Shown here in pieces: positions 5,030 to 17,175 of a stretch of 64,000 nt of DNA; positions within the stretch are counted from its first letter, which is position 1; each line of letters opens with the position of its first letter. The notes beneath the pieces were generated by a model. That model saw nothing but the letters and a program-made list of their open reading frames with translations, searched no databases and had not been told where the DNA came from. Source of the DNA: Dietzia sp. NCCP-2495 (GTDB lineage Bacteria > Actinomycetota > Actinomycetes > Mycobacteriales > Mycobacteriaceae). The position numbers and the translations under genes were made by a program. Location: assembly GCF_026011735.1 (NCBI RefSeq), contig NZ_BRVN01000016.1:1-64000 (forward strand), in the 5' to 3' direction.

Positions 5030-5557
5030 GGTAAGGCATTATCAGTTCCTTACGGAATTGAAATCCTGATGATCCGGACGGTCGCGTTTCCGCTTGTGAT
5101 GGGGCTGCACGAATTCTAGGACCGTGCTACTCGCGGTTCCCATTGAAGCTGCTGCACACCATCGACCCTGCGCCAGTTCGTTGATCGGTGAGGCGAGCTA
5201 CTCACGTGTGTTCGGGGAGCACGCTTCTGCTCGTCGTCGTCACCCTCCTTTCGAACAGTCGCACCACATACCCGCCACAATCACACCTGACGCCCAGGCA
5301 GGATCCTCCCGCGGACCTGGTGACGGTCGTCGCCGCGTCCGGGACCAGCGGCGACTGTTGATCACAGTTCGGCCCCTGGCCCAACGTCCGAACCCGACCC
5401 GGAAGCTGGCCCAGGCGTCCACCGCACAACCGTCACCACGGCAGTGCCGCCCCAGGTTTCCGACACTCCACGGGGTGACGCCCGGCGCCACCCAGTGGCA
5501 GCCCGCAAGTCGGTACCGTGGCGTCGTCAGGCCACACCTCCAGAAAGGTCACGGTAC
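5030..5557. other. 528 bp without a supported gene
   Basis: Lies between the ISL3-type element and the next gene. Reading frames exist on both strands but show no family resemblance, no convincing ribosome binding site and no codon pattern like the neighbours. No convincing remainder of the interrupted immunity copy was found after the IS. The last 15 bases hold the ribosome binding site of the following gene. Confidence 0.5.
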
Positions 5558-7093
5558 GTGTTCGAATCTTCGCTGCTGGTCGACTCTGTCACCGGGCTCC
5601 TCGAGATGGAGTTGGTGGAAGATCGTGACTACACGGCACATTCACCGCTGCGCTATTCCGCACCGCACCCCGGCCCGCTTCCGGGTGGTCGCCGCATCGT
5701 CGACGTCAACCTCACCGACCTGGGCGATCGCGGCTGGATGCAGTGTCACTACTCCGTGGTCATAGACGTCACCTCGCTGGCAGACCAGATCCCCGAGCAT
5801 GTCGCCTCACCGTGGTTGACCGCCATCGGAGCAGGCGTCCCCGGGAGCTGGGCGCAGCTACTGGAGACCACTCCCTACGATGTCACCGAAACCGCTCCCA
5901 CCACCGCTGGCATCCCCGATTCCGAAGACGCCGAGGGCGATGCCGACGTCCATGTGATCGAACCTCTCGAGGCCGCCTTCGATCCGGACACCATCCCCAG
6001 TACGGCCTCCGAACTTGCCGCCCACGCCCTGACCGGTCCGAACGGCTACCGACTCGACAAGCGGAACTGGCGCACCACGTGTCTTCTCCTCGCCGCTGGC
6101 GGGCGCCGCGATCTGGCCGACCAGGTCATCAGCAGAGTCGCAGACTTCCCCCGCGCCTCCTCGGACACCGCGGACGCGATCGCCGAGTTCGCCCGCTGGC
6201 TCTCCGCCGCCGAGATTCCCCCCGGCCTCACCTGGTCCCCGGCCGACGAACCCGGCGAGCTCACCCTGCCCGCGCCCCCGACCCCCGGCGAGGTCCTCCC
6301 CTCCAGGGCCATCTGGCGTCGCACTCCGCGGCGCAGCACTCCGGAGCCCGTCGAGGTGCAGGAGCTCGACGTCTCCTTCGCGGGCGCATATGACCTCGAC
6401 ATGTGGCTCAGCGCGATGTCCATCCTCGAGCTCGAGTTTGACATCTACGACGTCCCCGGAGCCCCGGGCGACATCCTCGCTCCTGAGCAGGCTCCCTTCG
6501 TCGAGCGCCAGCTGCTCGACACCTTTCCCTCCTGGGGTCACGCCACGAACTATCGTCACCGCGATCTTCTCGACCGCTACCAGCGGCACCTCGGCGAGCT
6601 CATCCGCGCCCGGCACGACGCAACGTGGACAGCCCGCTACGCGGGGGAAGGGGACATCCTCGACCCGATCCTGACCCTCGCCGACGGCCGCACCGTCGAC
6701 CCGACTGAGGTCATCAAGCACGCCCTGACCGTCCGCACGGGGACGACGTACACCGAGCTGCTCGCCGAGCTGGCAGGACCAACCTCCGCCGGATCCGGGG
6801 CACCAGCGACCATCGACTCGGGTGACCGGGCGATCGAGGCTGTCCTCGGGTACATCGACGCGAACTCTCTCGACTACCCGCGCACCGGGCTCGAGGCCAC
6901 CCCGTTCTCCGCGGGCTGGTCGGTGTTCGCTCCGTTCGTCCCGGACCCGAACGACCCCATGTCGTTCCTCGACACCCCGGTCGGCCGGGCGGTGTTCTAC
7001 ATCGGCTTCGACGGGCGCATCGAGAAGTACTCCTCGTCACTGTCCGCCACCGAGTGCGAACGGCTCTTCCTCGAGGGCGGCGGCACCAATTAG
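5558..7093 (+). CDS. Large protein with an immunity-like domain
   Basis: A 511-residue protein of unknown function. The GTG at 5558 is chosen because GAAAGG sits 9 nt upstream; the frame is open further upstream but without family support. The first 300 residues are unrecognised. The middle (about 6390-6650) has LLDTFPSWGHATNYR, DLLDRYQRHLGE and DATW, which align with the core of the putative immunity protein at 2688-3194 (LVDQFPTW, RDRLLRYFG, GTW). The C-terminal 100 residues (GWSVFAPF, TPVGRAVFYIGFDGRIEKY) resemble small immunity-type domains that end in a GW...PV...DG pattern; that similarity is weak. No signal peptide or membrane segment. A multi-domain immunity protein is the likeliest reading, inferred from context and the shared block. 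Confidence 0.6.
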   Translation: MFESSLLVDSVTGLLEMELVEDRDYTAHSPLRYSAPHPGPLPGGRRIVDVNLTDLGDRGWMQCHYSVVIDVTSLADQIPEHVASPWLTAIGAGVPGSWAQLLETTPYDVTETAPTTAGIPDSEDAEGDADVHVIEPLEAAFDPDTIPSTASELAAHALTGPNGYRLDKRNWRTTCLLLAAGGRRDLADQVISRVADFPRASSDTADAIAEFARWLSAAEIPPGLTWSPADEPGELTLPAPPTPGEVLPSRAIWRRTPRRSTPEPVEVQELDVSFAGAYDLDMWLSAMSILELEFDIYDVPGAPGDILAPEQAPFVERQLLDTFPSWGHATNYRHRDLLDRYQRHLGELIRARHDATWTARYAGEGDILDPILTLADGRTVDPTEVIKHALTVRTGTTYTELLAELAGPTSAGSGAPATIDSGDRAIEAVLGYIDANSLDYPRTGLEATPFSAGWSVFAPFVPDPNDPMSFLDTPVGRAVFYIGFDGRIEKYSSSLSATECERLFLEGGGTN

Positions 7094-7105
7094 GACCCAC
7101 ACCCA

Positions 7106-7166
7106 GAATCCGCTACTCCACCTGCGGATTCGCTACCGCTAGATGTACTGACCGGGGACATTGATC
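7106..7166. repeat. Left inverted repeat of the IS481-type transposon
   Basis: Pairs with 9923-9986 over its whole length with only a few mismatches and small gaps. The inner 23 bases (TGTACTGACCGGGGACATTG and onward) are perfect. The outer half holds two direct copies of a motif of the form GAATCCGCTAC / GATTCGCTAC, probable transposase binding sites. Confidence 0.85.
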
Positions 7167-7176
7167 GAGGAAATAG

Positions 7177-7207
7177 TTGACCTTGTCGTAACGGCAATGT
7201 TTACGGT
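7177..7207 (+). promoter_or_regulatory. MerR-type promoter of the protease gene
   Basis: TTGACC (7177-7182), a 19-nt spacer and TACGGT (7202-7207). The overlong spacer contains an inverted repeat TTGTCG-taa-CGGCAA, the arrangement MerR-family activators use. Transcription would begin about at the ATG at 7216, giving a leaderless mRNA, which fits the absence of a ribosome binding site there. The likely regulator is the TipAS-type MerR protein encoded at 8154. Confidence 0.5.
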
Positions 7208-7215
7208 TGCTTGTC

Positions 7216-8124
7216 ATGACCATTTCAATGATTGACAGTGCCTCGGGCATGCGCCGAGTCCTGACTGCGGATGCGAAGGATCGCGACGACCTCATCCGTG
7301 ACATGTGGGCTCCCATGTCGGGGATGTACCACTTCATTCCCGGCGGTGTGGACATGGCCACCGTGCACCAGCAGAACTTTGGCTTCCGTCCAGACTCCGC
7401 GATCGAGCGGGTCCGCGAAGGTTTGGAGTCTCTTGTCGCGGCCGATGCGTGGACCCGCATCGAGAAGGCCCTCGAGGAGGGCGTGGAAGCGTTGGCGTCT
7501 GCCGATCCGGGTGTGACGATCCCCGACGTGAACGTGTTGCTCGTCCTGGGGGATCCGACGAGCCAGCACTTCGTCGACGAGGTGCAAGGGATGTCCGGAT
7601 TTGGCGGGATCAGTGGCTACATAGCCATCACCGTCTGGCCAACCTCGCGCGTCCTCGATCGCCTCGAGGCGATCGCGGTCCACGAACTACACCACAACGT
7701 GCGCTATTCACCCGGCGGGATCGTGTGGGATCCACAGACGGTGATGGTTGGCGAGCACGTTGTGTCTGAAGGGCTCGCGGATGTTTTCGCGTCCGAACTG
7801 TACGGCGACGCCGGCTACACCCACTTCGTGCGCGACGAAACCCGCTCCGACGACCAGGTCCTGGCGAAGGTCGCCAGCGGACTGGGCGTCACCGGAATGG
7901 CAGACTTCGCAGCCTGGGTGCTGGGCGACTCCAGCGCACAACTATTCGGTGCCGAGCCTGTCGGCCTGCCAACCGGGGCTGGCTATGCAGCCGGTGCTCG
8001 GCTTGTCCGCGCATACCTCGACGCCACGGGCACCACGGCCGCCCAAAACGTCAGCACTCCCGCGTCCGAGATCCTGCGCATTGCGCTGCCACGGCTGGGC
8101 CTGACCACAGACGGGGCACACTGA
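7216..8124 (+). CDS. DUF2268-like putative zinc-dependent protease
   Basis: A 302-residue protein with VHELHHNVRYSPGG at about residue 158, an HEXXH zinc motif, followed by SEGLADVFASELYG, the downstream acidic part expected in the DUF2268 family of predicted Zn proteases. No signal peptide or membrane segment, so probably cytoplasmic. The ATG at 7216 is preferred over the TTG at 7207 because it sits where transcription from the MerR-type promoter should start. The next gene, a MerR regulator, begins 29 bp downstream, so both are probably one operon inside the transposon. Substrate unknown. Confidence 0.75.
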   Translation: MTISMIDSASGMRRVLTADAKDRDDLIRDMWAPMSGMYHFIPGGVDMATVHQQNFGFRPDSAIERVREGLESLVAADAWTRIEKALEEGVEALASADPGVTIPDVNVLLVLGDPTSQHFVDEVQGMSGFGGISGYIAITVWPTSRVLDRLEAIAVHELHHNVRYSPGGIVWDPQTVMVGEHVVSEGLADVFASELYGDAGYTHFVRDETRSDDQVLAKVASGLGVTGMADFAAWVLGDSSAQLFGAEPVGLPTGAGYAAGARLVRAYLDATGTTAAQNVSTPASEILRIALPRLGLTTDGAH

Positions 8125-8153
8125 GCAGCAGGTCGAACGACAGGAGCCCGGTG

Positions 8154-8921
8154 ATGGAATGGACGGTGCACGAGCTCGCTGAACGCGCAGGCATCAGCGG
8201 CCGCACGCTGCGCCACTATCACCGCATCGGGCTGCTCGAGCCCGACCGCGTCGGGGCCAACGGCTACCGCTACTACGGTCCCGACGCGGTCGCTCGCCTG
8301 CAACGCATCCTCCTTCTCCGTGACACGGGTATGCCACTGGCCGACATCGCCGCAGTCCTCGACGCCCCCGAGACGCCCACCGCCGAGGTCGAAGCGCTCC
8401 AGGCCCACCTGACACAGCTGGCCGAGGACCGCGAGGCCATAGACCAGCGCATCAGCGCGGTCGAGCACACCCTGCAGATGCGCCGAGAGGGCCGTGAACC
8501 ACGCATGGACGTGATGCTCGAAGGCTTCAACGACCGCTACGAGGCCGAGGTCGTACGACGGTGGGGGCGCGAGGCCTTCGCCGCGTCGAACCGCTGGTGG
8601 CATGCCAAGTCCCTGGGACAGCAACGCGACTGGCAAACCAGCGCCCAGGCCCTGCTCACACGGTGGGCAGAAATCTACGAAACCGGGCAGACGCCCGACT
8701 CACCAGTTGCTCAATCCCACGCTGCCGACCACATGGCCTGGTTTGCTGACATCCCCGGAACACCCACCCACGCCGGCGATGCCGAACGATCCGCCGCAAT
8801 GGTGCAAGGCATGGCCGACCTCTACGAAACCAACCCCGACTTCCACCAGACCTTCGGCAGCCCAGAGGCCGCGCAGTTCGCCGCGAACGCATTGCGCATC
8901 CACGTGCAGCATCCGGCCTGA
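8154..8921 (+). CDS. MerR-family regulator with TipAS-like ligand domain
   Basis: A 255-residue protein. Residues 1-70 are a MerR helix-turn-helix (VHELAERAGISGRTLRHYHR, then GYRYYGPDAVARLQRI). A coiled dimer helix follows (about 75-115), then a C-terminal domain with features of TipAS (DGW-like region, WAEIYETGQ, HMAWF) as in thiopeptide-binding TipAL and relatives. The ATG at 8154 has AGGAG 7 nt upstream; the GTG at 8151 is too close. TipA-type proteins activate their own or neighbouring promoters on binding a compound; here the 19-nt-spacer promoter at 7177 is the natural target. The ligand is unknown. Confidence 0.85.
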   Translation: MEWTVHELAERAGISGRTLRHYHRIGLLEPDRVGANGYRYYGPDAVARLQRILLLRDTGMPLADIAAVLDAPETPTAEVEALQAHLTQLAEDREAIDQRISAVEHTLQMRREGREPRMDVMLEGFNDRYEAEVVRRWGREAFAASNRWWHAKSLGQQRDWQTSAQALLTRWAEIYETGQTPDSPVAQSHAADHMAWFADIPGTPTHAGDAERSAAMVQGMADLYETNPDFHQTFGSPEAAQFAANALRIHVQHPA

Positions 8922-8963
8922 CAGCGGCGTGTGCTGCGGCGCCGTCCCGGACCGAAAGATGAC

Positions 8964-9950
8964 ATGTCCCATCCCAACGCTGCCCTCACACCGCGTCACC
9001 GTCTGAAGGTTGCCCAACTCGTCGTCGAGGAGGGCTGGCCGATCAGTGAGGTCGCCGCGCGTTTCCAGGTCTCGTGGCCGACCGTGAAACGCTGGGTCGA
9101 CCGCTACCGCGCCGGCGAGCCCATGCACGACCGGTCCTCCCGCCCGAAGAGTTCGCCGAACAAGACAAGCACGCCCGTCACGAAACGGTGCATCAACCTG
9201 CGGATTAGGTTGCGGGAAGGTCCAGTTCAACTATCAGCAAGGCTCGGGATCGCGCCCTCCACAGTCCACCGCATCCTCACCGCCGCTCGATTGAATCGGC
9301 TATCGCACGTCGACCGGGCGACCGGCGAACCGATCCGTCGTTACGAGCACGCACACCCCGGGTCGCTGGTGCACGTGGACGTGAAGAAGCTGGGGAACAT
9401 CCCCGACGGCGGTGGCTGGCGCTATGTCGGCCGACGCCAAGGCGACCGCAACCGCGTCGGCACACCGGATAAGCCACGCAATCGGTACGGCGGACCCAAG
9501 CTGGGCTACGCCTACGTCCACACCGTGATCGACGACCACTCCCGCGTCGCGTACACCGAGGTCCACGACGACGAGACTGCTGTCACTGCCGTTGGCGTCC
9601 TGCATCGAGCTGCCGGCTGGTTCGCTGAGCGTGGGGTAACGATCGAGCGAGTACTGTCCGACAACGGCGGTGCCTACCGGTCGCATCTGTGGCGTGATAC
9701 CTGCGAGGCGTTGTCGATCCGACCGGGGTACACGCGCCCGTATCGACCCCAGACGAACGGGAAGGTCGAGCGCTTCCACCGCACAATGGCCGACGGGTGG
9801 GCTTACGCCCGCTGCTACCGCTCAGAGGCAGAACGACGCGATGCTCTCGAGTCATGGCTGCACCACTACAACCATCACCGACCCCACACGGCCTGCGCGA
9901 ACCAGCCACCCTTCACGCGATTGATCAATGTCCCCGGTCAGTACAGCTAG
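8964..9950 (+). CDS. IS481-family transposase
   Basis: A 328-residue DDE transposase starting MSHPNAALTPRHRLK, the usual IS481 N-terminus, which fixes the ATG at 8964. An N-terminal helix-turn-helix (ISEVAARFQVSWPTVKRW) is followed by an rve-type integrase core: HVDVKKLGNIPDGGG (first Asp), VLSDNGGAYRS (second Asp) and NGKVERFHRT (Glu). It appears intact. The last nine codons lie inside the right inverted repeat. Confidence 0.95.
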   Translation: MSHPNAALTPRHRLKVAQLVVEEGWPISEVAARFQVSWPTVKRWVDRYRAGEPMHDRSSRPKSSPNKTSTPVTKRCINLRIRLREGPVQLSARLGIAPSTVHRILTAARLNRLSHVDRATGEPIRRYEHAHPGSLVHVDVKKLGNIPDGGGWRYVGRRQGDRNRVGTPDKPRNRYGGPKLGYAYVHTVIDDHSRVAYTEVHDDETAVTAVGVLHRAAGWFAERGVTIERVLSDNGGAYRSHLWRDTCEALSIRPGYTRPYRPQTNGKVERFHRTMADGWAYARCYRSEAERRDALESWLHHYNHHRPHTACANQPPFTRLINVPGQYS

Positions 9951-9986
9951 AGGGGTAGCGGATATCGAGGCGGAGTAGCGGATTCG
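9923..9986. repeat. Right inverted repeat of the IS481-type transposon
   Basis: Mirror of 7106-7166. It contains the transposase stop codon (9948-9950) and two direct copies of GTAGCGGAT (9956 and 9975 region). Confidence 0.85.
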
Positions 9987-10037
9987 GGGGGGAGGGGGAG
10001 GGTGTGAGCGGGGTCGAGGGTAGCGGGGTCCGCGGCG

Positions 10038-10907
10038 TCAGCGGGGGCTGTCGCCGATTACCAGCGGCAGGTCCGGGTTGCCGGCCCAGGCAGTCATGGA
10101 TCCGTCGTAGACCGCCACGTCGTCGCGTCCAGCCAGCGCCAGCGCATGGGCCACGCCCGTCGCCGCGATCCCGCCACCGCAGTAGGTCACCACGCGCGTG
10201 CCCTCATCGAGCAATCCGGCCTTCTCGAACTCCTCGCGAAGTTCCTCGAGCGGGCGGAGAGTTCCGGTCTCCGGGTCACGCAGAGTGAACACCGGCAGGT
10301 TGATACTGCCCGGGATGTGGCCACGACGGGCGTAGGTGTCCACTTCGCCGCGATAGGTGGCCTCGTCGAGGACGTTGACCAGAATGGTCCCCTCGTCCTC
10401 GAGATTCGCAGCGATCTCCTCGGTCGACCGGATGAGCTCTGGGCGACGAGTGCCGGTGAAGGTGCGCGGCGTGGGCTCGGGGACCACGTCGGTCACCTCG
10501 AAACCCGCGGCCTTCCAGGCCGGGAGCCCGCCGTCGAGGATGGTGACGGAGTCGAAGCCCTCGTAGCGCAGGTGCCACCAGAACCGGGTGGCCCAGAAAC
10601 CGTCGTGCTGGTCGTACACCACCACCCGCGCGCCGTCGCCGATTCCCAGCGTGCCGGCTGCCGCGGCGAACCGTTCGTGGTCGGGCGCCGTCCACGGCTC
10701 GGCGGCGGCCGGATCGGCGAAGTCTCCGAGCAGATCGGCGAACAGTGCGCCCGGGATGTGCTCGGCACGGTAGGTCTGGGCGCCTGACTCGGGTACGTAC
10801 GGGCCGTCAGTGGGGACGGGGAGGTGGTTGGTGGCGTCGACGACGACGAGATCCTCGTCGGCCAGATGCTCGTTGAGCCACCGAACACTCACGCTGAGCG
10901 GTGCCAT
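10038..10907 (-). CDS. Thiosulfate/3-mercaptopyruvate sulfurtransferase
   Basis: A 289-residue protein with two tandem rhodanese domains. The N-terminal inactive domain (about 10-140) carries DGPYVPESGAQTYRAEHIPG. The C-terminal active domain (about 165-285) carries the active-site loop TYCGGGIAATG with the persulfide-forming Cys. It transfers sulfane sulfur from thiosulfate or mercaptopyruvate to cyanide or thiol acceptors. The ATG at 10907 is preferred (AAAGGA upstream); the frame opens earlier, across a palindromic operator, and that part is not coding-like. It lies alone between the IS481-type transposon and the ESX-4 locus. An 18-bp perfect palindrome 33 bp upstream suggests repressor control. 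Confidence 0.93.
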   Translation of the reverse strand: MAPLSVSVRWLNEHLADEDLVVVDATNHLPVPTDGPYVPESGAQTYRAEHIPGALFADLLGDFADPAAAEPWTAPDHERFAAAAGTLGIGDGARVVVYDQHDGFWATRFWWHLRYEGFDSVTILDGGLPAWKAAGFEVTDVVPEPTPRTFTGTRRPELIRSTEEIAANLEDEGTILVNVLDEATYRGEVDTYARRGHIPGSINLPVFTLRDPETGTLRPLEELREEFEKAGLLDEGTRVVTYCGGGIAATGVAHALALAGRDDVAVYDGSMTAWAGNPDLPLVIGDSPR

Positions 10908-10939
10908 GGGGGTTCCTTTCACGAGGGGACACCCCCACC

Positions 10940-10957
10940 ATAGACAGATCTGTCTAT
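10940..10957. promoter_or_regulatory. 18-bp perfect palindrome, probable repressor operator
   Basis: ATAGACAGATCTGTCTAT is identical to its reverse complement. It lies 33 bp upstream of the sulfurtransferase start and overlaps a possible -10 (TATGGT or TATAGA on the minus strand). Size and symmetry resemble TetR-family operators, but no regulator gene adjoins it. Confidence 0.6.
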
Positions 10958-11025
10958 ACGGGCGCGGCCGTGCCTCCCCGGTCGGGTGTGGCACCGGGCC
11001 ATGGCCGCTCCCCTCGGACACAGCT

Positions 11026-11095: not shown

Positions 11096-11389
11096 TCAGC
11101 CCCAGCCGTTCGCCGCCGTGCGATCGGCGTCGGCCATGCCCTGGTTGCCCCGGAGCGCGGCGTTCGAGATCTCGGTGAGCATCGCCTGGAGCGCAGCCGC
11201 GGCCTGGTCCCACTGCTGCTGGTGGACCTGGTAGGCCTCGGCGGCGCTACCCTGCCACTCGGCGACGAGCGGCTGGAGGTACTGCTTGAGGTCGTCCAGC
11301 CCGGTGCGCAACTGGACGGAGGCCTGGGACACCTCGCTGACGAGCGCGTCGATGGTGCCGTGGTTGTAGGTGATCTGCCCTGCGTTCAT
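11096..11389 (-). CDS. esxT: WXG100 secretion substrate, EsxT-like
   Basis: A 97-residue helical-hairpin protein with the WXG100 turn (EWQGSAAEAY, WQG at about residue 45). It is the last gene of the minus-strand ESX-4 arm. WXG100 proteins form antiparallel heterodimers and are exported by the EccC ATPase; the partner here is the protein encoded at 11506-11826. The family's YxxxD/E export signal is not clear at the C-terminus of either partner. Named by synteny with mycobacterial ESX-4 (esxT-esxU-Rv3446c-eccC4). Confidence 0.88.
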   Translation of the reverse strand: MNAGQITYNHGTIDALVSEVSQASVQLRTGLDDLKQYLQPLVAEWQGSAAEAYQVHQQQWDQAAAALQAMLTEISNAALRGNQGMADADRTAANGWG

Positions 11390-11401
11390 GTCGGTTCTCC
11401 C

Positions 11402-11503
11402 CGTGGGTCAGTGTGGCCGTGTGGCCGAGTGGCCGCTTGGCTGTGTGGCCGTGTGGCCGAGTGCCTGTGTTGCTGTGGGTCGGTGGGTCGGTGTGACCGT
11501 GTG
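11402..11503. repeat. Degenerate GTGTGGCC repeats between the two esx genes
   Basis: The 116-bp gap between esxU and esxT is built from imperfect copies of GTGTGGCCGTGTGGCCGAGTG and derivatives (about 8 bp period). It has no coding content. It leaves esxT 116 bp from esxU, more than usual for an obligate pair. Confidence 0.75.
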
Positions 11504-11505
11504 GA

Positions 11506-11826
11506 TCACATGTTCAGAGGCCCGGAGTTGCCCGCGCTGGTGATCATCGCCGCGGAGTCCTGGTCAGCGGCGTCGAAGCTCGCACTGTTGCTCCGCACGG
11601 TCTCGGAGATGCCGGCCAGGGCGTTGTTGAGTTTGCGGCTCTGCTCCTGCCACTCGGTCATGATCTGGGTGAACCGGGTCTGCGCGGATCCCTGCCAGAC
11701 CCCGGCGCCCAGTCCGGACACGGAACCCTGGACCCGGCTCAGCAACCGGGCGATCTCCGCATTCGTGTCATCGACCCGCTTGGCCGCGGTGTCCATGGTC
11801 TCGAGCTGGGTGTTGAAACCGTTCAT
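11506..11826 (-). CDS. esxU: WXG100 secretion substrate, EsxU-like
   Basis: A 106-residue protein of the WXG100 fold with GVWQGSAQTRF at about residue 43 and long flanking helices. Partner of the EsxT-like protein in the ESX-4 system. It lies between the Rv3446c-like gene (138 bp upstream) and esxT. Confidence 0.88.
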   Translation of the reverse strand: MNGFNTQLETMDTAAKRVDDTNAEIARLLSRVQGSVSGLGAGVWQGSAQTRFTQIMTEWQEQSRKLNNALAGISETVRSNSASFDAADQDSAAMITSAGNSGPLNM

Positions 11827-11964
11827 CTCGTCCTCCCCTTGTCAGTCCAGTCGTGCGGATTCCCTTTTTGGTCCGTCACAGTGTTCGACGCACCCGGGAG
11901 CCCATCTGGTTCCCCGGTTGGCGAAGTTTTTTCCGCGATCGTGCGTACGTGGGCCGCAGAACGT

Positions 11965-12801
11965 TCAGAGCGGGGCGTAGAGCCTGGTCGCAGCCTCTGC
12001 TGGCCCCACGGCGGGCACCACGTACGACAACAGCCGGGCCCGGTCGCACGCGTCGACGACCCGCTCCGCCAGCCGCCCGCGGACGAGCACCTCGGTCGAT
12101 CCCGACCCCGCCTCGCGATGCCTGTTCCGGACGGCTGTCACCGCGTCGAGGATCCGCGACACCTCGTCGTCGACCATCGTGTCGCGACGCGGGTCGCGGC
12201 GATGGACCACCGCCCGGTCGACCAACGTGAGGCCCGCCCGGGTCCGTTCGACGAGGCTCACCGTCGTGCGGGTCCGGGACGTCTCGACGCTCACCGCCCA
12301 GCGAAAGGACGACGACGGCAACGCCTCCGCAGTCGCGAGCGCCGCCCGCACCACACGTGCCTCGACACCGAGCTCCCGGACCGCCGCGGACAACCGTGAG
12401 GTCCGGACCAGTCCCCAGTCACTGGGTGCAAGCACCACGACCTCGTCGGCCGACCGGGTCCCGGCATCACCGATCCACCGCAGTGCACGGGTGACGGGCG
12501 CGGCGAGCAACTCGGGGACGGGCACCGACAGTCCGGCCACGTCCACGCGGTCCCGGTGGACGTACGCGACGGGATCGGAGAGACAGCGGTCCGGGAATCT
12601 CACGGCCGCCGCGTCGGAGCGGGCCGAACATTCGATACGGTCCCCGCCCGGTGGCAGGGAGGACCCGTCCATCCCCGCCAGCACCGACGCGGGCGCGACA
12701 ACCGGGCTCAACACCGCCGAGGCGGAGGAGGTCGAGACGGCGAGACCGGAGCACGACAGGTCCACCGCCACGACGGCGCCGATCGTCCTCACGCCGGTCA
12801 T
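11965..12801 (-). CDS. Type VII secretion-associated protein, Rv3446c-like
   Basis: A 278-residue protein with start codon ATG at 12801 overlapping the eccC stop in an ATGA junction, which fixes the start and indicates translational coupling. It begins MTGVRTIGAVVAVDLS and has an actin/ASKHA-like start (VVAVDLS) and VVVLAPSDWGLVR, similar to the Rv3446c family that always sits between eccC4 and esxU in ESX-4 loci. Shorter than the mycobacterial homologue (about 400 residues). Role in secretion is not established; assignment rests on position and weak similarity. Confidence 0.75.
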   Translation of the reverse strand: MTGVRTIGAVVAVDLSCSGLAVSTSSASAVLSPVVAPASVLAGMDGSSLPPGGDRIECSARSDAAAVRFPDRCLSDPVAYVHRDRVDVAGLSVPVPELLAAPVTRALRWIGDAGTRSADEVVVLAPSDWGLVRTSRLSAAVRELGVEARVVRAALATAEALPSSSFRWAVSVETSRTRTTVSLVERTRAGLTLVDRAVVHRRDPRRDTMVDDEVSRILDAVTAVRNRHREAGSGSTEVLVRGRLAERVVDACDRARLLSYVVPAVGPAEAATRLYAPL

Positions 12802-15800
12802 GAATGCTCGGCCAGCGCGGTCTGCACGAGCCGGACACCGGCGTCGCGCGTGACGAGCCTGCCCCGTCCGGCGGGAAGTGGCCCGGGCCGGACCCCGCCG
12901 AGCAACACGCCCTCCTCCCGACTGCCGGAGAGGACGAGGCCGGCTCCCCCGAGGTCCCGGATCCGCCCGACGAACTGGTCGAACAGCGCGCGCGAGGCCC
13001 CCGCACTGCGGCGGGCCAGAACGACGGACAGTCCGATGTCGCGCGCGTGCGGAAGGAACTCCGCCAGCGGCAGCAGCGGGTTCCCGGTGCTGGAGATGAC
13101 CAGGTCGAGGTCGTCGACGAGGAGGTAGATCCGGGGACCGCTCCACCACGACCGGGCGCGCAACTCCTCGGGTGTGACGTCTGGCCCGGGCATGCGCTCG
13201 GTGAGGATCGCCGCCAGGTGGGAGACCATCGGGACCAACGCGGTCTCGGTGGCCGCGTATCCCGCCAGGTGATCACCCTCGATCTCCCCGAGCATCGTCC
13301 GTCGGTAGTCCACCACGATGAGTTTGGCGTGCTCCGGACTGTTGCCGGTGACGAGGCCGCGCGCGAGCGCCCGGAGAACGGACGTCTTGCCGCTCTCGGC
13401 GTCACCGAACACGAGCATGAGCGGGTCCGCCTCGAGATCGGCGTAGACAACCGAGAGGTCGGCCTCGTCCACGCCGATCGGGAGCCTGGTCCGGCTCCCG
13501 TCCGGTCCCGGACGGGACAGGCTCGCCACCTGCGCGTAGGGCAGGACCTCCGGCAACAGTCGCACGGGGGCCGCCGCCACGTCGCCGACCAGGGCACGCC
13601 AGCGCGCGGCCAGGTGACGACTGGCCGCGGCGGTCGCGTCCGCGATCCCGTCGGCATCGGCCCGGCCGTCCAACCTGGGTTGGTACACGAGCATGTGCTG
13701 ACGGTCGCGGGTGAGCCCGCGGCCCGGTGCGGTGGGCACGGACATGGCCGTCCGCCGGTCGACCATCGAGTCCGTCGGGTCCCCCAGCCGCAGCTCGATC
13801 CGGGTGCCGAGGGAGTCACGTAGGGCGGGGCGCAGGTCAGCCCATCGGGACGCCGAGAGCACCACGTGGATTCCGTAGGACAGCCCGTCCGCGGCCAACC
13901 CCAGGACGAGCTGCTCGAGGTCCTCGAACTCGGTCCGGAACGCCTGCCATCCGTCGATCACGAGGAGAACGTCGGGATACTCCGCCACTGGTCGACCGTC
14001 CCTGTCCGTCGACCGTCGACGGGCCTGGTCGACGGAGGTGATCTCGTCCTTGCGGAACGCGGTCTCGCGGCGTCGGCGTTCGGTCTCCACCTCGGCGACG
14101 GTGCGGCGGATCTTCTCGTCCTCGCCGCGCCGTGCCACGCCGCCGACGTGAGGGAGCCCGGCGACGGAGTGCAGCAGACCGCCGCCCAGGTCGACGACGT
14201 AGGCCGAGAGCCGGTCGGGCGCCGTGGTGGCCGCAGCCGAGAGCAGGAGGGTGCCGAGCGTGGTGGACTTGCCGGCGCGGGTGCCTCCGACCACGGCAAC
14301 GTTGCCGTCGCCTCCGGACAGGTCCACCACCCATGTGTCGCGACGCTGTTCGAAGGGGAGGTCGACCTCGGCGATCGGGAACCGGAGCGAGGCGGGGAGC
14401 TCCTCCCCCGCGCCCGTGGGGTCGACGCCCACGGCGGAGTCGAGTGGCGCGCCCTCGCCGAGCGGCGGCAGCCAGACCTCGTGCGCGGGGCGACCGTGGC
14501 CCCTCAGCCGCCCGACCAGGACGCCGAGCAGGCTCTCGTCCTCCGCGGGAGCTGACGCCCCACTACCTGACGCCTCGCCGCCCGGCACCTCACCGCCCGG
14601 CGCCCGGACCTGATCCTCCGCCGGCAGGGGTTGCGGCGCCGGGACGGGGATGTACCAGGAGGTGAACGGCCGGACCGCCGCGCGGGCGGCGGGCGTGGTC
14701 ACCGAGGAACCGTCCAGCCGACGGTCGTCCCGGTAGGGGCCCGACACGTAGGCGGCGTCGAACCGCACGGGGTCGCCGGCGTCCACCTTGAGATACCCCG
14801 CGCCCGGCGCCGCCGGGAGGTGATAGGCGTCGGTCACGCCGAGCACCGTGCGCGATTCGGTGGCCGAGAACGTCTTGAGCGCGATCCGGTACGACAGGTG
14901 ACTGTCGAGCCCGCGCAGCCTTCCCTCCTCGAGCCGCTGCGACGCGAGCAGGAGGTGGATGTGCAGGCTCCGGCCCAGTCGACCGATGGTCAGGAACAGC
15001 TCGGCGAACTCCGGCTTCGAGCTGAGCAACTCCGAGAACTCGTCCACGACGATCACCAGCGCGGGCAGCGGCTCGAGCGGTGCGCCCTTGGCGCGGGCCG
15101 CCTCGTACTCGCCAACGTTGGCGTAGTTCCCGGCCGCGCGGAGGATCTCCTGACGCCGGGTGAGCTCCCCCTCGAGCGCGTCCCGCATCCGGTCGACCAT
15201 CGTGATCTCGGCCTGCAGGTTGGTGATCACCGCCGCGACGTGGGCCAACGGCTCGAGCCCGAGGAAGGTGGCGCCGCCCTTGAAGTCCACCAGGACCAGG
15301 TTCAACGAATCCGGGTCGTGGGTGGCCACCAGTCCCAGGACAAGGGTGCGCAGGAACTCCGACTTCCCCGAGCCCGTCGCCCCGATGCACAGCCCGTGCG
15401 GCCCCATGCCACCGTGCGCGGCCTCCTTGAGGTCGAGTTCGACGGGCGCGCCGTCCGGACTGACCCCGACCGGTACCCGCAGCCGGTCACGCTCCCCTCG
15501 GCGACGCCACGCCACCGCGGGGTCGACGCGGGAGGCCACGCCGATCCCGAGCAGATCCGGCAGCCCGGGCGCCCGCCGGGTCGAGGTGGAACCGTCGGCG
15601 AGGGTCACCGTGTCCGCCAGGCGATAGCGGGCCATCGCCATGGCCACCCGTTCCGCCTCGGGAAGACTCAGGTGATCGACCCGGGCGATCTCCTCGTCGC
15701 CGGAATCGGTCCGGATCGACGCGATGCCGTCGTCGTCGACCTGGATACACAGGCCTCGCCCCAGGGCGAGGTCGCGGAGCTGCCCCGCGCGGCTCCCGGA

Positions 15801-16838
15801 GACCTCGAGGACGGTGACCCCGTCCAGTCCGTTCTCGGCCAGGATCCGCTCGGCGCCGGTGACCCCCACGCCGTCGACGACGACGACGAGGTGCGCCCGT
15901 CCCGGGACGAGTGGCGCGGTCGGGGCGAAGGCGGACCGGTCCGAGATCTCGGCGCCGAGCATCGACTCCACGCCGGCCAGGGAGAACTCGGACAGGCGCA
16001 CCCGACCCCCGCCGTCGGTGAACTCCCGGTGTTCGTGGTGCGGCAGCCACTTGAGCCACTCCCACGCGCGCCGGGCCTGGCCCTCACTCGCGGCCACGGC
16101 GATCCGGACCCGGTCCGGACCGTGCGCCACGACCAGCCCGGCGAGCATCGCCCGGACCGCCGAGCGGACCACGTCTACGTCGCCGTCCAGGGACAGGGCC
16201 GCGAATGCGCGCAACTCCAGCGCGACCGGGAGCTCGTCGACCACGGAGTGCACGCGGACGAAGCGGCGCATGCTCACCACGGACACCGGCTCCAGGTCGT
16301 CGACCGGACCGGTGTCCGGCGCGCTCAGCGGCGTGGCCAGGGTCTGCCGACCGGGGCCCACGCGGATGGTCAGGTCGTCCCGCTCGCCCTCCCGGCGCTC
16401 CCACATCCGCGCCGTGCCGATCATCGCCGGAAGTTCCACCGGATCCGGGTGGCGCCACAACGCCGCGGCCCGCTGCGCCTCCGCCGTGGCGCGCACCTCG
16501 TCCCGTGTCTGCCCCAGGTACCGCAGGTAGTCCTTGCGGAGCTCGTCGGTCTCCGCCGTCTTGGCCCCGCCGCCGAGGTTGCCGGCGAGCATGCCGACCG
16601 CCGAGACCGCCATCATCAGCGGGAACATCATGAACATCGGATTGCGCATCATCCCGCCGCGCATCATCACCAGGACCATCCCGCCCACGGCCACGACCAT
16701 CACCAGCGGGAGGATGATCTGGATGATCGGGCGGGGCGTCGGACGTGGCAGCGAGGGGGGTGTCTGGAGGGAGACCTCTCCGCCCGGCACCGGGGGCGGG
16801 TCGAGTTTCTCGGGCCGGGAGAACACCACGTCACCCAT
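12798..16838 (-). CDS. eccC: ESX-4 secretion ATPase EccC
   Basis: A 1346-residue FtsK/SpoIIIE-type ATPase, the motor and substrate receptor of the type VII system. The N-terminus begins MGDVVFSRPEKLDPPP, typical of EccC, followed by two membrane segments (about 40-60 and 70-90). Three ATPase domains have Walker A motifs GATGSGKSEF (about residue 485), GGTRAGKST (about 865) and GDAESGKTS (about 1175). The first also has LVLVDFKGG and VVDEFSELL. A single polypeptide, unlike the split EccCa/EccCb of some ESX systems. ATG at 16838 chosen from the family N-terminus; 8 further in-frame codons upstream are possible. Divergent from eccD across a 337-bp repeat-containing region. Confidence 0.96.
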   Translation of the reverse strand: MGDVVFSRPEKLDPPPVPGGEVSLQTPPSLPRPTPRPIIQIILPLVMVVAVGGMVLVMMRGGMMRNPMFMMFPLMMAVSAVGMLAGNLGGGAKTAETDELRKDYLRYLGQTRDEVRATAEAQRAAALWRHPDPVELPAMIGTARMWERREGERDDLTIRVGPGRQTLATPLSAPDTGPVDDLEPVSVVSMRRFVRVHSVVDELPVALELRAFAALSLDGDVDVVRSAVRAMLAGLVVAHGPDRVRIAVAASEGQARRAWEWLKWLPHHEHREFTDGGGRVRLSEFSLAGVESMLGAEISDRSAFAPTAPLVPGRAHLVVVVDGVGVTGAERILAENGLDGVTVLEVSGSRAGQLRDLALGRGLCIQVDDDGIASIRTDSGDEEIARVDHLSLPEAERVAMAMARYRLADTVTLADGSTSTRRAPGLPDLLGIGVASRVDPAVAWRRRGERDRLRVPVGVSPDGAPVELDLKEAAHGGMGPHGLCIGATGSGKSEFLRTLVLGLVATHDPDSLNLVLVDFKGGATFLGLEPLAHVAAVITNLQAEITMVDRMRDALEGELTRRQEILRAAGNYANVGEYEAARAKGAPLEPLPALVIVVDEFSELLSSKPEFAELFLTIGRLGRSLHIHLLLASQRLEEGRLRGLDSHLSYRIALKTFSATESRTVLGVTDAYHLPAAPGAGYLKVDAGDPVRFDAAYVSGPYRDDRRLDGSSVTTPAARAAVRPFTSWYIPVPAPQPLPAEDQVRAPGGEVPGGEASGSGASAPAEDESLLGVLVGRLRGHGRPAHEVWLPPLGEGAPLDSAVGVDPTGAGEELPASLRFPIAEVDLPFEQRRDTWVVDLSGGDGNVAVVGGTRAGKSTTLGTLLLSAAATTAPDRLSAYVVDLGGGLLHSVAGLPHVGGVARRGEDEKIRRTVAEVETERRRRETAFRKDEITSVDQARRRSTDRDGRPVAEYPDVLLVIDGWQAFRTEFEDLEQLVLGLAADGLSYGIHVVLSASRWADLRPALRDSLGTRIELRLGDPTDSMVDRRTAMSVPTAPGRGLTRDRQHMLVYQPRLDGRADADGIADATAAASRHLAARWRALVGDVAAAPVRLLPEVLPYAQVASLSRPGPDGSRTRLPIGVDEADLSVVYADLEADPLMLVFGDAESGKTSVLRALARGLVTGNSPEHAKLIVVDYRRTMLGEIEGDHLAGYAATETALVPMVSHLAAILTERMPGPDVTPEELRARSWWSGPRIYLLVDDLDLVISSTGNPLLPLAEFLPHARDIGLSVVLARRSAGASRALFDQFVGRIRDLGGAGLVLSGSREEGVLLGGVRPGPLPAGRGRLVTRDAGVRLVQTALAEHS

Positions 16839-17175
16839 GCCAGGCCCCCTCGCGACCCGCACCGGGGCCCTCGCGTCCGCGTCGCCGGGGCACCCCCTGG
16901 GGAGATGACCTCCCCACGACCGCCCGCGGACACCGACAATGTCCGTTATCGGTAGGCGATGTTAGGACAGTTCACGTCCTGACGGGGTGCCTACAGTGCG
17001 CCGACGGGGTACAGGCGGGGCACCGGCCGGACAGCGGTCGGGCACCGGCCGGACAGCGGCCGGACGGCGGCCGGACGGCGGCCGGACAGCGGCCGGACAG
17101 CGGCCGGACAGCGGCCGGACGGCGATCGGCACCCACGGGACGCCGGCGGAGACCACGATGCGGGAGGACACAACA
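16839..17175. promoter_or_regulatory. Divergent eccC-eccD intergenic region
   Basis: 337 bp between the ESX-4 arms. It contains a short inverted repeat (AGGAC-N7-GTCCT near 16966-16983), then the 11-bp tandem array at 17025-17123 and the eccD ribosome binding site GGGAGG at 17162. Promoters for both arms must lie here; I could not place -10/-35 boxes with confidence. Confidence 0.5.
17025..17123. repeat. 11-bp tandem repeat, 9 units, upstream of eccD
   Basis: Unit GGCCGGACRGC. Seven clean units run from 17047 to 17123. Before them are one clean unit (17025-17035) and one degenerate unit (17036-17046). The 11-bp period is close to one helical turn, so the repeated faces are nearly in phase. 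Confidence 0.9.

Follow-up and report, generated by a model that had tools for sequence, protein, structure and literature searches.

A probable IS481-family transposon from Dietzia that carries a predicted zinc protease and a MerR/TipAS regulator

A compact set of three genes is present in the 64,000-nucleotide stretch of DNA analyzed here (the window), which covers positions 1 to 64,000 of contig NZ_BRVN01000016.1 from Dietzia sp. NCCP-2495. These genes code for a predicted zinc protease of the DUF2268 family, a MerR-family regulator with a TipAS domain, and an IS481 transposase (Table 1). All three reading frames are open, and they occupy an element of 2,802 bp (7144-9945) that is bounded by perfectly matching 23-bp terminal inverted repeats (TGTACTGACC...) and occurs only once in its own genome. 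A 6-bp target duplication, GCTAGA, is located directly outside both ends. The repeats begin with TGT, a mark of IS481 elements, and the duplication is of the NCTAGN type, as in published IS481 relatives (PMC6794481, PMC2516522). Given these features, 7144-9945 is probably an IS481-family transposon with two passenger genes. A composite transposon was also considered and rejected, as there is a single transposase, at the right end only, and no insertion sequence copy on each side.

The transposase matches its NCBIfam model with 347 bits against a cut-off of 224, and its catalytic triad is kept. The DDE triad of IS481 transposases has 35 residues between the last D and the E, and the same spacing separates D233 and E269 here. 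The gene has no stop codon of its own. Instead, the target supplies a TAG (9948-9950), which lies inside the target duplication and outside the element. At an E-value of 1e-130 or better, this transposase is found in 5 of 246 genomes of the class, its own genome included.

Table 1. Positions of the element, its genes and its surroundings in the window, and of related units at other loci (L numbers).
Feature	Position	Strand	Remarks
Left half of dispersed host palindrome	7102..7143	.	Last 6 bases (7138-7143) are the left GCTAGA
Left terminal inverted repeat, TGTACTGACCGGGGACATTGATC	7144..7166	+	Perfect complement of 9923-9945; other copies have the same boundary
MerR-type promoter	7177..7207	+	TTGACC 7177-7182, 19-bp spacer with dyad, TACGGT 7202-7207
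DUF2268 zinc protease (predicted), 302 aa	7216..8124	+	PF10026; HELHH at residues 156-160; E185
MerR-family regulator with TipAS domain, 255 aa	8154..8921	+	Pfam MerR_1 and TipAS above cut-off
IS481 transposase, 328 aa	8964..9950	+	NCBIfam NF033577; D139, D233, E269
Right terminal inverted repeat	9923..9945	-	Overlaps 3' end of transposase gene
Right half of host palindrome	9946..9989	.	First 6 bases (9946-9951) are the right GCTAGA
Upstream neighbor gene	5444-7093	+	Without Pfam or NCBIfam match
Downstream neighbor gene	10038-11021	-	Rhodanese-like sulfurtransferase, by eye
Copies of a Mu-C transposase/AAA-ATPase element	L055 2862-10108; L054; L057		Three genera; >99.9% identical where readable
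Protease-MerR units with GAAAATCTAAACTCCAC-like edge repeats	L040 196-2060; L043, L045, L039 and L056, each 6737-6760

An earlier note on this DNA had recognized the three genes and the inverted repeats, perfect over 23 bp, but it had taken repeats of 61-64 bp as the transposon ends and had drawn the unit at 7106..9986. The additional complementarity belongs to the host. The outer pair (7102-7140 and 9951-9989), outside the duplication, is 79% complementary and represents the arms of a split palindrome. When the flanks are joined without the element, the resulting sequence has a folding energy of -57.8 kcal/mol (z -11.0) and matches its own genome at 30 further places, of which 28 match over at least 69 of 80 nt and contain no insert. 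One such copy (L182) is identical to the joined flanks across the insertion point for about 20 nt, and CTAG is present in 5 of the 9 distinct copies read, with 4 of these having it within the loop. The outermost ~40 bp on either side were therefore rejected as a transposon end, because the same sequence is a palindrome dispersed in the host genome. As judged from these copies, the element landed in the loop of a host palindrome, at a place where CTAG lay.

Weighing against this view of the insertion, an orthologous empty site was not found among the five same-genus loci listed, in all of which the gene facing the sulfurtransferase differs from that of the window. One same-genus genome without the element (L160) has the palindrome beside the same gene, by eye, but it is not a strict empty site because the gene on the other side differs. 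The palindrome is itself of some interest, as a dispersed host sequence of ~75 nt with a very stable fold and often with CTAG offers a ready landing site for IS481-type elements.

Evidence that the whole unit moves comes from its relatives. Among 11 elements with DUF2268, MerR and transposase genes and two readable ends, seven (the window element included) have perfect, identical 6-bp duplications, all of which are NCTAGN and which are spread over several genera. In addition to GCTAGA in the window, these are GCTAGC in Dietzia cercidiphylli, Rhodococcus sp. HNM0563 and one genome of another genus, TCTAGG in Prauserella rugosa, CCTAGA in a Microbacterium metagenome-assembled genome (MAG), and CCTAGG in Kocuria salsicia. 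The seven elements measure 2,782-2,803 bp. End-to-end DNA matches of 94-100% identity were found in 4 of 301 genomes of the family, its own included, and a fifth match is cut by a contig end; the query for this search lacked the first 3 bases of the left end, and as seen from the flanks the homology starts at TGT. Because identical duplications flank whole units at different sites, protease, MerR and transposase are judged to have moved together as one unit. The other four of the 11 elements (L049, L059, L060 and L061) have unequal duplications, which speaks against this conclusion. L059 and L060, whose duplication copies differ by one base, share their flanks and thus represent one insertion.

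The earlier proposal of a mobile unit thus holds for joint movement, though not for the ends that had been assigned, and the search for the unit at other loci and in other genomes that had been suggested yielded whole copies with duplications. The earlier note had also named two findings that would speak against such a unit, namely a transposase bounded by closer ends or a protease-MerR pair that stands without the repeats. Both exist, the former in other lineages as passenger-free relatives of 1.1 kb and the latter at other loci, and neither applies to this unit, which stands because whole copies with duplications exist elsewhere.

Some relatives appear to be derivatives of the complete unit. 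In L030 (Oerskovia) and L010 the left end is degenerate, the right end is retained and the protease is intact, but the transposase and all or most of the MerR gene have been lost. A distant copy on the Kocuria rhizophila plasmid CP124834.1 (L021) has the same protease-MerR-transposase layout with its genes split over several frames, perhaps due to sequencing errors or decay.

The transposase of the window belongs to a larger group. A tree was built for 37 IS481 transposases chosen from whole-element DNA matches, a class search, plasmid matches and DUF2268 loci. It includes 11 rows with DUF2268+MerR cargo, found via the whole element or its cargo, and 13 rows with other cargo, found via transposase or DNA similarity except for L069, which was found via an adjacent DUF2268 gene. 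A group of 28 is supported at 99/95. Passengers stand between the left end and the transposase in 24 of its members, mostly as a regulator plus an effector, and the remaining four are unreadable. All seven passenger-free elements in the tree fall outside this group and measure 1,093-1,113 bp where both ends are readable. Besides DUF2268+MerR, the cargo kinds, as assigned from Pfam or from the annotation of the records, are WYL+RidA (L134 and L139, with L141 assigned by sequence likeness alone), WYL+VOC, WYL+alpha/beta hydrolase, TetR+SDR, TetR+ABC transporter, ABC ATPase+permease with no identified regulator, LysR+EamA, AraC+VOC with an IS3-like gene pair inside (by eye), Rrf2+NAD(P)H-binding, and the ArsR+permease of ISArsp12. 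Perfect duplications are present in 11 of the 13 elements with other cargo, one of which (L069) has ATTAGA rather than NCTAGN.

DUF2268 cargo is found on two well separated branches of the transposase tree. Approximately unbiased (AU) tests reject a single DUF2268 clade for the transposases (p 1.6e-9) and also reject one clade for the proteases, both in a quick tree of 81 rows (p 1.2e-5) and in a careful tree of 39 of these rows (p 1.5e-4). The groups tested were named after the trees had been seen, and all trees except the 39-row protease tree were unrooted or midpoint-rooted. On these post hoc groups, a single origin of the DUF2268-IS481 association was rejected, which argues that cargo and transposase have recombined. 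In every group seen, the protease start codon follows the left end at a distance of 71-74 nt, so the passage of a left end with its cargo from one transposase backbone to another is just as likely as capture on several occasions. The more general result of this work, and one that is new here, is an apparent IS481 clade whose members carry passengers and swap them.

Two observations concern the architecture of this clade. At ~2924-2930 of L070 (on the contig of L148), a WYL+VOC element and a DUF2268+MerR element meet at their left ends and are separated by just one TCTAGG, and such an arrangement is a possible route for cargo exchange. Also, the passenger-free elements L150, L130 and L138 have a strong hairpin (z -4.8 to -7.0) that covers the start codon of the transposase or lies immediately upstream of it, a place where passenger-carrying relatives instead have cargo and, in several instances, terminator-like hairpins (by eye).

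The passenger protease matches Pfam PF10026 with 109 bits against a cut-off of 23.6, and its HExxH motif (H156, E157, H160) and E185 are invariant in 44 sequences. For a structure model with a predicted local distance difference test score (pLDDT) of 94.4, structural matches were ranked by VIA-align, which re-ranks Foldseek candidates. The best matches are gluzincin peptidases, including structures from families M1, M4, M30 and M36, of which M1 and M4 have the nearest folds. These share just 7-14% identity with the protease among the 50 rows listed, and a sequence search for solved relatives gave none at E <0.1. The protein is thus predicted, from its motifs and its model, to be a zinc protease of the gluzincin fold. 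No signal sequence is present, by eye, and the location is probably cytosolic.

Pairwise ratios of nonsynonymous to synonymous substitution rates (dN/dS) are below 1 in every pair among nine proteases, seven MerR proteins and four transposases, and range from 0.09 to 0.31 except in the near-identical pair L025-L026 (0.44 for the protease and 0.48 for the transposase). For the proteases of the derivatives L010 and L030, the values are 0.09-0.28. The protease is under purifying selection, with the limit that pairwise values cannot single out the branches that follow the L010 and L030 deletions. A protease at E 1e-60 or better occurs in 22 of 298 genomes of the order, and a 44-row profile finds it in 3 of 296 genomes of the phylum, its own genome being included in both counts.

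The regulator has a MerR DNA-binding domain (67.4 bits, cut-off 21.6) and a TipAS domain (65.3 bits, cut-off 23.8). Its nearest solved full-length relatives are SkgA (7cla) and 3qao, and its structure model has a pLDDT of 86.5 and a predicted template modeling score (pTM) of 0.51. Promoters that are activated by MerR proteins are marked by a 19-bp spacer. The sequence TTGACC-19 bp-TANNNT, with at most one mismatch, precedes the protease in 66 of 78 stretches, compared with a mean of 0.245 after 2-mer block shuffling. These stretches comprise the window and 77 loci, with L029, L075 and L081 left out because their match is short of the start; the loci belong to a set of 80, the best 80 of 169 relatives recovered with two short peptide patterns. 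Other spacers of 14-23 bp occur in 0-2 stretches each, and a spacer of 24 bp in 24 stretches. A dyad, TTGNCG...CGNCAA, lies within the 19-bp spacer. In 63 of the 66 stretches with the promoter, 7-8 nt separate the end of the -10 hexamer from the start codon, and in the window the start codon of the protease (7216) follows the hexamer by 8 nt. With the -10 hexamer this close to the start codon, the message is probably leaderless, and that of the protease appears to be so.

The promoter is present at all 23 loci labeled as having the left end (a lenient label, with up to 3 mismatches in 12, that is doubtful for L058 and L090) and at 29 of the 31 that have a MerR gene with no left end or transposase. 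Of the 80 related loci, 51 have a MerR match after the protease. On a Clavibacter plasmid the two genes are convergent, which indicates that their partnership survives rearrangement. Because the 19-bp-spacer promoter is conserved before the protease, MerR control of the protease operon is a well-supported prediction. This also provides a basis for inducibility in the drug-inducible module of the earlier note, in which the word 'drug' was an inference.

Several observations weigh against such a tight pairing. The promoter is absent from 12 of the 78 stretches, and no MerR match is found downstream at 29 of the 80 loci, some of which are cut by contig ends. Of the plasmid records, 11 of 20 in one list (H1-H10 and H19) and 5 of 18 in another (H23, H25, H32, H34 and H38) were read; an adjacent MerR/TipAS gene is absent in four of five plasmid neighborhoods read (Priestia, Clostridioides, Tsukamurella and Deinococcus), in two of which a MerR gene lies ~2 kb further on. 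The promoter is also present at 12 of the 22 loci where no left end, MerR or transposase was found. Since MerR-less loci exist and some of them retain the promoter, the protease may work without a neighboring MerR gene. The MerR protein contains no cysteine. TipA captures thiostrepton covalently, and the window protein cannot do so in the same manner because it lacks this residue.

As judged from gene content and sequence identity, the DUF2268 protease rides two other kinds of mobile unit besides IS481. One is a Mu-C transposase/AAA-ATPase element that carries the protease together with a beta-lactamase-family hydrolase and an rRNA methyltransferase gene; on plasmid pCmarinum2 (L023) the latter is Erm(51), and no MerR gene accompanies the protease. 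A like element is 99.9% identical over 7.2 kb between Flaviflexus and a Propionibacterium MAG, and the first 70 residues of its protease are the same, by eye, as those of the pCmarinum2 protease. Corynebacterium lemuris has the same element over the 3.1 kb read, with a broken protease frame.

The other kind is a protease-MerR unit shared, at 93-97% identity, by Microbacterium, Brevibacterium, Agilicoccus and Thermocrispum. The Agilicoccus and Thermocrispum units sit directly against a gene that reads as ychF, at its 3' end, and the Agilicoccus unit has near-repeats on either side. In L040 and L043, a unit adjoins the ychF-like gene at this end (...GKDYVMADGDVVEFRF). Further DNA lies between unit and ychF in L045 and L039, and an adjoining minus-strand frame in L039 ends in VEFRFNV. 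The units at the ychF edge look like site-specific insertions, perhaps in tandem.

A mechanism can be proposed from these components. The MerR/TipAS protein would bind the spacer dyad of the promoter that lies just internal to the left end. With its effector domain loaded, it would activate an operon that starts with the apparently leaderless gene for a probably cytosolic protease and that includes its own gene. With less assurance, an inhibitor of hydrophobic or peptide-like nature might be the signal, and the protease might cleave this inhibitor or else damaged or target proteins. The result would be an inducible protective response that selection has spread on several kinds of mobile unit. 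By analogy, the module may tentatively be viewed as a cytosolic peptidase system that is induced in response to peptide-like inhibitors. More doubtful is the broader proposal that this IS481 lineage is a dedicated shuttle for regulator/effector modules and that DUF2268-TipAS is an unrecognized resistance determinant that destroys peptide-like antibiotics.

About as likely as the response to peptide inhibitors is a general stress protease, which might serve regulatory proteolysis such as the turnover of a cytosolic regulator in cells exposed to oxidative or cell-envelope stress. SkgA, the closest relative of the MerR protein with a solved full-length structure, is a stress and catalase regulator of Caulobacter; the lack of a signal sequence and the nearest folds, those of the general peptidases M1 and M4, also fit this alternative. 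The occurrence of the protease on three kinds of mobile unit, including one that bears Erm(51), is more typical of niche-specific protection and counts circumstantially against it. It is improbable that the passengers serve the transposon, for example that the protease or regulator tunes transposition or stabilizes the element in the cell. Cargo and transposase are read in the same direction, and the terminator-like hairpins between them in several relatives (by eye) suggest that read-through matters. However, protease and MerR stand at many loci where no IS481 was found, transposases of this one clade are associated with about ten other kinds of cargo, and L010 and L030 keep an intact protease, with pairwise dN/dS of 0.09-0.28, after losing the transposase and all or most of the MerR gene. 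Least probable is an immobile house-keeping protease-MerR operon near which an IS481 element has fallen, with the left repeat as a relic or solo end. In its favor, 32 of the 80 loci have protease and MerR with no left end or transposase found, but 2.8-kb units between identical duplications and a host palindrome split exactly by the unit already refute this for the element described here.

Anti-phage defense was rejected as a function, as neither PADLOC nor PHROGs gave a match for the protease. PADLOC matched the regulator to the MerR-like model mad1 and gave a weak match for the transposase, and two Staphylococcus phage records contain a protein that is 26% identical to the protease. In the window, the region downstream of the element (11096-16862) encodes WXG100-like small proteins and a large FtsK/EccC-like ATPase and, by eye, resembles a type VII secretion-like cluster.

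The exact ends, the target and the probable regulation make the function of this mobile protease module directly testable, and the short, conserved, apparently leaderless promoter underlies this opportunity. If the protease proves to be a defense against peptide antibiotics, a nameless type of resistance would be recognized. More broadly, the comparison points to an entire clade of IS481 elements as carriers of small response operons.

Some features of this element have precedents among peptide-antibiotic sensors and published IS481 elements. TipA/TipAS and AlbA are MerR-type sensors of peptide-like antibiotics with TipAS-type domains, and the AlbD endopeptidase can inactivate albicidin (PMC6078987). 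The window protein likewise is of MerR type with a TipAS-type domain, but it is free of cysteine. In the portion of that article available, sensor (TipA, AlbA) and peptidase (AlbD) are split precedents, and a sensor-protease operon is not described. A literature search, which did not extend to ISfinder, recovered no paper joining IS481 and TipAS and, by title, none on DUF2268 in this setting. ISKrh1-3 all belong to the IS481 family (PMC12500396) and may include relatives.

The closest published parallels to the transposon are other IS481 elements. ISLxc2, a plain IS481 element of Leifsonia xyli, shares the NCTAGN target and the stop codon in the target, but it is 1,105 bp long with one transposase gene, and no passenger is mentioned in the part of the source at hand (PMC2516522). 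TnRErm46, an IS481-family transposon of Rhodococcus equi, is like the Dietzia element a one-transposase unit with cargo, NCTAGN duplications and a CTAG target that supplies the transposase stop; it differs in its length of 6.9 kb, its seven open reading frames with erm(46), and its end, TGTTGCGGGTCATGACGTTG (PMC6794481). ISArsp12 is a 2,615-bp element of the IS481 family with an ArsR regulator and a permease, to which ISPfr21 is reported to be 86% identical (PMC6305408). It has the end TGTACTGACCGG..., a 6-bp CCTAGA duplication, and a regulator and effector between left end and transposase, and its transposase is 78% identical to that of the window and falls inside the same passenger-carrying clade. 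The difference lies in the cargo, which is ArsR plus a permease there and a DUF2268 protease plus MerR/TipAS here. The earlier note had known of no described example, and this stands for the cargo, whereas IS481 elements with passengers were already in print. The kind of element is therefore known from ISArsp12, ISPfr21 and TnRErm46, and the DUF2268 plus MerR/TipAS cargo appears to be new.

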